From: Deltaproteobacteria bacterium RIFCSPHIGHO2_02_FULL_44_16
Lineage (GTDB): Bacteria; UBA10199; 2-02-FULL-44-16
Length of the DNA: 64,000 nucleotides
NCBI GenBank assembly: GCA_001798185.1
Contig: MGRM01000022.1
Location: 1 to 64,000, forward strand
Direction of reading: 5' to 3'
Notes under the pieces: generated by a model
Databases searched by the model: none
What the model was told of the DNA's origin: nothing
What the model saw: the letters and a program-made list of their open reading frames with translations, nothing else
In this document: positions 9,984 to 34,622 of the stretch, one piece after another
Layout: each line of letters starts with the position of its first letter
How positions within the stretch are numbered: the stretch's first letter is position 1
Translations under genes and position numbers: made by a program

Positions 9984-10011
9984 AAAAAGCCCTTCGATTA
10001 ATGGGCTTTTT
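9984..10011 (-). terminator. Rho-independent terminator after tRNA-Asn
   Basis: AAAAAGCCC and GGGCTTTTT form a 9-bp stem with a 10-base loop just downstream of the tRNA 3' end on the minus strand. Because both flanks are A/T runs it could act in both directions, also ending the phosphodiesterase transcript. The rest of the 146-base gap (9869-10014) holds a small hairpin GAGGCTCAGCCTC and no gene. Confidence 0.75.
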
Positions 10012-10014
10012 GCT

Positions 10015-10327
10015 TGGCTCCGCAGGGCGGACTTGAACCGCCGACCCTCTGATTACACGACCTCCAATTGTTTCCAATTGGCGTGGACTATCTCTTCATC
10101 ACATCATAACTACGATGGATGGCGGGCGCTTGTGAGAGATTATTCTTATCGTCACTCTCTAGTCTCTGCACCTTCCTCTTGCCTTTAACATCAAGAGGCT
10201 TGGCTCAGGATTGGCATATGCAAGCGCACTTAGCTTCCCCTGAGTTCACCCGCTTTTCATCTCACTGTTACCAATGAGAGCTGCCTTATTGACAGTCAGA
10301 TGCTCTAACCGGCTGAGCTACTGCGGA
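10015..10327 (-). tRNA. trnN: tRNA-Asn(GUU) gene interrupted by a group I intron
   Basis: The 5' exon is 10327-10292 (36 nt) and the 3' exon 10055-10015 (41 nt, with encoded CCA). Joined, they give acceptor stem TCCGCAG/CTGCGGA, discriminator G, a normal D arm (AGCTCAGCCGGTTAGAGC), anticodon stem TCTGA/TCAGA with loop CTGTTAA (anticodon GTT), and a T arm with GGTTCAAGTCC. The anticodon-loop context GACTGTTAATC is that of tRNA-Asn. The intron falls between anticodon bases 2 and 3. If the intron is ignored, the loop misreads as CTGTCAA (Asp), so the splice sites matter. Confidence 0.9.
10056..10291 (-). ncRNA. Group I self-splicing intron in tRNA-Asn, 236 nt
   Basis: The 5' exon end CTGU pairs with GCAG in the intron, leaving a U.G pair at the 5' splice site (P1). 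P4 is CTCAGG/CCTGAG and P6 is CCTCTTG/CAAGAGG. The R and S core blocks are GGTGCAGAGACTAG and AAGAGATAGTCC, and P9 is CCAATTG-GAAA-CAATTGG. The last intron base is G. Two core blocks, CAATCCTGAGCCAA and AGGTGCAGAGACT, match the conserved core of the cyanobacterial and plastid trnL(UAA) intron, so I infer subgroup IC3. No open reading frame is inside. Confidence 0.88.
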
Positions 10328-10340
10328 ATATATAATTTTT

Positions 10341-10558
10341 TTAAAGAACAATTATTCCTGCATGTAATTCTCGATGACAATTTGCGCATAGCATGATGCA
10401 TTTTTCCAGTTCTTCTTTGATTGCCATCCAAGATCGAGTGTACCCTTTTCAGAGATACCAAAATTTTTCAAGTCCCTATTTAAATGATGAAATTCAAGAG
10501 CACCGGCACAACGACAATAACCGCAAATTTGAGTCGTTTCAATAGACATGTCAAACAT
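10341..10558 (-). pseudogene. HNH endonuclease gene with a frameshift
   Basis: The first half reads ICGYCRCAGALEFHHLNRDLKNFGISEKGTLDLG, the zinc-finger and His-His part of small HNH nucleases. The frame then goes wrong, but the shifted frame continues exactly as expected: WMAIKEELEKCIMLCANCHRELHAG, with the second CxxC and the final H. One base is therefore gained or lost near 10428-10436. It ends 13 bases before the intron-bearing tRNA-Asn on the same strand. Either a decaying homing-type nuclease or a sequencing error. Confidence 0.75.
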
Positions 10559-10571
10559 TGTTTCCCGCCTG

Positions 10572-10620: not shown

Positions 10621-10881
10621 ATGACGCTCCGACCAACTAAACACTTCATCTATATCCTTCAATCCAAAGACGGACGATACTATACTGGTTATACGACTGA
10701 TCTTGAACGTCGCTTCAAACAACATCAATCTGGTGTGGGTGGAAAATTTACGCGCTCTTTTGGAGCCACGAAAATTCTTTATCAGGAATCATTTTCCGAA
10801 AAATCGTTAGCGCTCAAACGCGAAGCAGAAATTAAACATTTCTCTCGGATAAAAAAAGAGGCTTTGGTGAAAGGTCAATAA
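10621..10881 (+). CDS. GIY-YIG (UvrC N-terminal/URI) domain nuclease, 86 residues
   Basis: A free-standing single-domain nuclease of the GIY-YIG superfamily, YhbQ-like. The motif is degenerate as FIYILQSKDGRYYTGYTTDLERRFKQH, with the catalytic Tyr and Arg, followed by the conserved Glu and KREAEIK region. 86 residues is the normal size for this group. It is divergent from the HNH remnant and ends 4 bases before the convergent helicase gene. Functions in this family are poorly known; DNA repair or mobile DNA are both possible. Confidence 0.85.
   Translation: MTLRPTKHFIYILQSKDGRYYTGYTTDLERRFKQHQSGVGGKFTRSFGATKILYQESFSEKSLALKREAEIKHFSRIKKEALVKGQ

Positions 10882-30863: not shown

Positions 30864-34622
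<3,759 letters not shown>

Follow-up and report, generated by a model that had tools for sequence, protein, structure and literature searches.

Group I introns have been reported in the genes for tRNA-Ile, tRNA-Arg and tRNA-fMet (PMC8450103, PMC4033280), and cyanobacteria carry them in tRNA-Arg, tRNA-Gly and tRNA-Lys genes (PMC5733544). The tRNAs of CPR bacteria also contain group I introns, which made these tRNAs hard to detect; their isotype, position and endonuclease are not described in the accessible part of that report (PMC8172020). When group I introns of archaea were surveyed in 2018, rRNA genes were their only hosts (PMC6125680), and according to a 2014 review no phage intron in a tRNA gene was known at that time (PMC3984707). 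No published group I intron of a bacterial tRNA-Asn gene was found in the open-access literature, and an earlier reading of this DNA from its letters alone (the sequence-only reading) had likewise been aware of none.

The window (the whole analysed stretch of 64,000 nt) contains such a gene. A putatively IC3-like intron splits the only tRNA-Asn(GUU) gene detected in the genome, between anticodon positions 35 and 36. We consider it highly likely that this intron belongs to a trnN lineage homed by HNH endonucleases, that its own endonuclease decayed and that the intron became fixed.

Structure of the Split tRNA-Asn Gene

The group I intron model RF00028 matched positions 10309-10064 on the minus strand over its full length (model 1-253; 253/253 positions), with a score of 87.7 bits (E=5.1e-21; gathering score 50). 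The base preceding the intron is U35 and the final intron base is G. Exon CUGU pairs with intron GCAG to form P1, which places a U.G pair at the 5′ splice site. The joined exons (10327-10292 plus 10055-10015) gave a 77-nt tRNA with perfect stems throughout, a U1-A72 pair, G73 and an encoded CCA, which ARAGORN called tRNA-Asn(gtt). Thus, the sequence-only reading was right in calling a group I intron within tRNA-Asn(GUU), and its coordinates, the 35/36 position and the terminal G were all exact. There is no endonuclease gene within the intron, which is too short for one at 236 nt. The terminator-like hairpin downstream of the gene has a loop of 10 bases and was not reported by a simple scan that allowed loops of up to 8 bases.

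Table 1. Features of the split tRNA-Asn locus in the window.
Feature	Positions	Strand	Basis
Terminator-like hairpin AAAAAGCCC/GGGCTTTTT, just 3′ of the tRNA	9984..10011	-	Read directly
tRNA-Asn(GUU) 3′ exon, U36 to encoded CCA, discriminator G73	10015..10055	-	ARAGORN
P7 3′ strand UAGUC	10086..10090	-	Invariant in 11/11
P7 5′ strand GACUA, guanosine-binding region	10160..10164	-	Invariant in 11/11
Internal guide sequence GCAG	10281..10284	-	Read directly; U.G pair in 11/11 aligned introns
Group I intron, 236 nt	10056..10291	-	RF00028 87.7 bits; covariation over 66 pairs
tRNA-Asn(GUU) 5′ exon: acceptor strand, D arm, anticodon stem, C32 U33 G34 U35	10292..10327	-	ARAGORN on spliced sequence; intronless orthologue in G001
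Pseudogene remnant of small HNH endonuclease	10344..10570	-	tblastn 2.6e-19 against intron-borne HNH ORFs; profile match

The secondary structure was examined in an alignment of 11 introns, which comprised ten trnN introns (from the same order, the phylum, other bacterial phyla and a virus) and a trnL intron from the relative G008. Helices P1-P9, including the P3/P7 pseudoknot, were drawn on the window intron, and the pairs were counted across all 11 sequences. Among 674 structure cells, 92.7% were paired, and this proportion fell to 36-42% when the partners were slid by 1 to 3 columns; drawing the structure from one aligned sequence favours the percentage paired and is insufficient to account for the covariation. 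Changes on both sides were found in 40 of the 66 pairs (shuffled mean 24.5), and the covariation was 0.445 vs. 0.147 after shuffling. P7, the U.G pair of P1 and the 3′-terminal G were invariant in all 11. The covariance score and the covariation exclude a chance origin of the match. The P5 region consists of a short P5/P5a only, and the intron is a short group I intron, putatively IC3-like.

When the unspliced gene was analyzed with introns allowed, ARAGORN placed the junction two bases earlier and returned tRNA-Thr(UGU). This reading was rejected because no P1 helix is possible at that junction, an intact tRNA-Thr(UGU) is present elsewhere in the same genome, and an uninterrupted orthologue in G001, 92% identical to the spliced exons, reads GUU (CUGUUAAUC). 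The tRNA-Asn gene of G001 represents the empty site. The host tRNAs of introns were typed with an explicit cloverleaf scorer; ARAGORN over all candidate junctions was too noisy. On the window and on two further loci (L182 and L183), ARAGORN reported no tRNA-Asn. Standard tRNA finders miss split genes of this kind, and thus the genomes seem to lack an essential tRNA.

Distribution of Split tRNA-Asn Genes

The GTDB species genomes were scanned for a pattern in which an intron P7 is joined to a tRNA-Asn-like 3′ exon, and the 5′ exon was rebuilt for each match. At least 53 clean split tRNA-Asn genes were found in GTDB contigs and seven in IMG/VR viral contigs (L164, L165, L170, L171, L172, L178, and L180). 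The GTDB hosts included many lineages of Patescibacteria, as well as Omnitrophota, Betaproteobacteria, Bacteroidota, Planctomycetota, Cyanobacteriota, Margulisbacteria and two archaeal contigs. Most of the candidates tested with Rfam scored as group I introns. The archaeal tRNA-Asn(GUU) genes (L106:2533-2768, minus strand, and L153:1406-1718, plus strand) scored 77.9 and 84.2 bits, respectively, and one of the two contigs is 205 kb long, with an MCM helicase gene near the split trnN. A BLASTN search of the window locus against phage and plasmid records gave no match that spanned most of the locus.

Closer to the window, a survey of related genomes, which the sequence-only reading had proposed as a check, found a split trnN in 13 of 46 genomes of the phylum. 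tRNA-Asn is a common group I intron host, and the rarity implied by the earlier account did not hold. Since the same arrangement is seen in numerous bacterial phyla, and also in some phages and a small number of archaea, the trnN introns apparently constitute a widespread and overlooked lineage of mobile introns. The window intron is confirmed as a new tRNA group I intron, and it is ordinary within its own lineage.

Several other introns were noticed. The genome of the window carries a second group I intron, at 34/35 of tRNA-Arg(UCU) (L002; C10, about 31943-32221, plus strand), which scored 48.6 bits with RF00028, just below the cutoff. A third match (C29, 22.9 bits) lay where there is no tRNA, and it was taken as chance. 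Introns were also seen in tRNA-Lys(UUU) at 33/34 or 35/36 and in tRNA-Lys(CUU) at 33/34 (L102, L124, L228 and L234; L248, L251, L257, L258, L270 and L271), and their guide sequence appears to vary with the anticodon. The 3′ flank of a group I intron in G007 (L184, C87:1519-1790), TCCCTCCGCCTCCACC, resembles the end of a tmRNA gene, and this is probably a tmRNA T-loop intron.

HNH Endonuclease Remnant

The sequence-only reading did not include the HNH remnant, which ends 16 nt upstream of the tRNA-Asn gene on the same strand. Its N terminus is degraded, a frameshift lies near 10445, and the profile match (10338-10463, 2.6e-16) contains two internal stops. Many of the longer trnN introns possess an ORF of roughly 110 aa close to the 5′ end. 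The HNH core of these ORFs follows the pattern GALEFHH...LDKCxLLCANCHRE (alignment A1). The HNH assignment was made by similarity: the Pfam HNH match was slightly below the cutoff in two of the three ORFs tested, and PHROG HNH families matched at 4e-30. In 29 trnN introns a relative was located on the same strand at a distance of 15-130 nt from the 5′ splice site; four split trnN genes, that of the window among them, had a relative upstream. Intact copies lay upstream of endonuclease-free split trnN genes at L067 (same strand) and L098 (opposite strand). All five strong HNH matches in the 46 genomes of the phylum were at split trnN genes (P=9e-4). One viral trnN intron (L172) contained a LAGLIDADG endonuclease ORF in place of HNH.

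A comparison was provided by G004, whose locus is partly syntenic with the window (DNA 73% identical). Its HNH copy, 54 nt upstream of the split trnN, is longer and open, but it has no obvious start codon and lacks one cysteine of the zinc site. GIY-YIG and RNHCP genes lie near both the G000 and the G004 locus. The GIY-YIG domain protein of the window (10621-10881, plus strand) is encoded divergently from the tRNA-Asn gene, and a 43%-identical gene is found upstream of the G004 split trnN. It was weighed as a homing partner and given no preference over the HNH remnant; no GIY-YIG gene was recognised in those long trnN introns for which the ORFs were inspected.

From its position and its relatives, the HNH remnant reads as a decayed homing partner of the intron. 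The alternative, that it is an unrelated neighbour which never mobilised the window intron, draws on its location outside the intron and on G008, which has a close intron and no HNH ORF upstream of trnN; none was seen in the intronless G001 and G005 either. However, the same small HNH family recurs inside trnN introns and beside split trnN genes, its strong matches in the phylum all coincide with such genes, and the remnant and the intron have diverged similarly from their G004 counterparts (each about 72-73% identical). We therefore regard an unrelated neighbour as improbable.

Origin of the Intron

The sequence-only reading had taken the blocks in the intron core as those of the trnL(UAA) intron and proposed that a trnL-type intron had switched hosts and altered its guide sequence. 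The blocks are shared with trnL, and both trnL and trnN introns are present in the relative G008, which would suit such a switch. However, the same blocks or close variants were also found in tRNA-Asn, tRNA-Lys, tRNA-Thr, tRNA-Gln, and tRNA-Ile introns, and they are not a trnL(UAA) signature.

The phylogeny was inferred from 50 introns and 204 columns. The window intron formed a group (98/94) with trnN introns from G004 and G008, which belong to two further families of the same order, and this group sat inside a multi-phylum, mostly trnN group; the deep branches of the tree are weak, and the split that separates the large trnN-rich group had values of 77/96. The canonical trnL(UAA) introns (L219 and L231, from a cyanobacterium and a betaproteobacterium) are inserted at 34/35 rather than 35/36 and grouped apart, together with a viral tRNA-Thr intron (97/97). 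Constraining them to join the trnN introns of the order cost 40.8 log-likelihood units (AU p=0.034, in a test run after the tree had been seen).

The trnL(UAA) intron of G008 (L185, C4:82749-83015) is inserted at 33/34, where 34/35 would be usual, and it was nested among the trnN introns (99/95). Joining this intron with the trnN introns of the order was not rejected (AU p=0.11), nor was a single clade of all trnN introns (p=0.096). The nesting suggests that the switch in this order ran from trnN to trnL. Taken with the different insertion site of the window intron and the disfavoured trnL grouping, these results make an arrival from trnL very unlikely.

Probable Dependence on Splicing

The tRNA census of the genome combined covariance hits with ARAGORN runs on those pieces of sequence. 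A second, intact tRNA-Asn gene, which according to the sequence-only reading would make the split copy a pseudogene, was looked for, and ARAGORN found none among the 44 tRNA hits. A comparison of the spliced sequence with its own genome returned the two halves and, apart from these, only other tRNAs. No intact tRNA-Asn was detected in a genome that is 97.5% complete, so the host very probably needs the split gene to be spliced. The assembly is in 29 contigs, so a second tRNA-Asn could lie in a gap.

Among the 46 genomes of the phylum, 18 contained an intact tRNA-Asn motif, and none of these overlapped with the 13 that contained a split gene (P=3.7e-4). Since intact and split genes never occurred together, the split copies appear to be sole copies. 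That the window gene is a non-functional pseudogene, and that Asn codons are read by another tRNA-Asn missing from the gapped assembly, is extremely unlikely in view of the perfect tRNA stems after splicing, the invariant catalytic core, the compensatory changes and the failure to detect an intact copy in any of the 13 split-trnN genomes.

Proposed History and Significance

Based on this anatomy, we propose that the pre-tRNA would fold so that exon CUGU pairs with the intron guide GCAG. Two guanosine-initiated transesterifications would then join G34U35 to U36 and release the intron. The trnN lineage may have spread by homing with the HNH endonuclease of roughly 110 aa, whose gene is located within the intron, at its 5′ end, or separately beside the tRNA gene. 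At the window locus, the endonuclease gene just upstream would have decayed, and thus the intron is now probably immobile. The intron would persist because its host gene is the sole source of tRNA-Asn, which would make splicing obligatory.

On a broader scale, we lean toward the view that group I introns of bacteria, archaea and phages have a major homing site, so far without a description, at position 35/36 of tRNA-Asn(GUU). It may be served by a dedicated small HNH family whose genes move back and forth between the intron's 5′ end and the DNA immediately flanking the tRNA gene, and an essential single-copy tRNA may sometimes become permanently dependent on a ribozyme. A single-copy tRNA interrupted by a ribozyme and linked to a small HNH gene offers a test of intron homing into essential tRNAs, of the movement of nuclease genes between intron and flank, and of intron fixation after the death of the nuclease. 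Specialists would not expect the trnN intron lineage, nor its occurrence in tRNA genes of archaea and phages.

Comparison with Known Systems

In cyanobacteria and plastids, the group I introns of tRNA-Leu(UAA), which are of IC3 type, resemble the window intron in being small and located in the anticodon loop, with the same core blocks. However, they are inserted at 34/35, use the guide GAG and form a separate branch of the tree. The introns of tRNA-Ile, tRNA-Arg, tRNA-fMet, tRNA-Gly, and tRNA-Lys genes are self-splicing and likewise conceal their tRNA genes from standard finders, but the isotypes differ. The group I introns of tmRNA (PMC11915505) are, like the trnN introns, sporadic, present in multiple phyla and confined to a fixed loop of a structural RNA. 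They differ in occupying the T loop of tmRNA, and about 4% of them contain LAGLIDADG homing endonuclease genes.

The F-CphI endonuclease and the psbA intron of cyanophage S-PM2 (PMC6083498) are an example of "collaborative homing", in which the endonuclease gene adjoins the intron-containing gene. The same adjacency is seen here in the remnant beside the window gene, and its intact equivalents are at L067 and L098. In cyanophage S-PM2 the host gene is protein-coding and the nuclease is of the Endo VII type, whereas in the window a decayed small HNH gene stands beside a tRNA gene. By analogy, the arrangement of nuclease and split gene in the window would resemble the collaborative homing of F-CphI.
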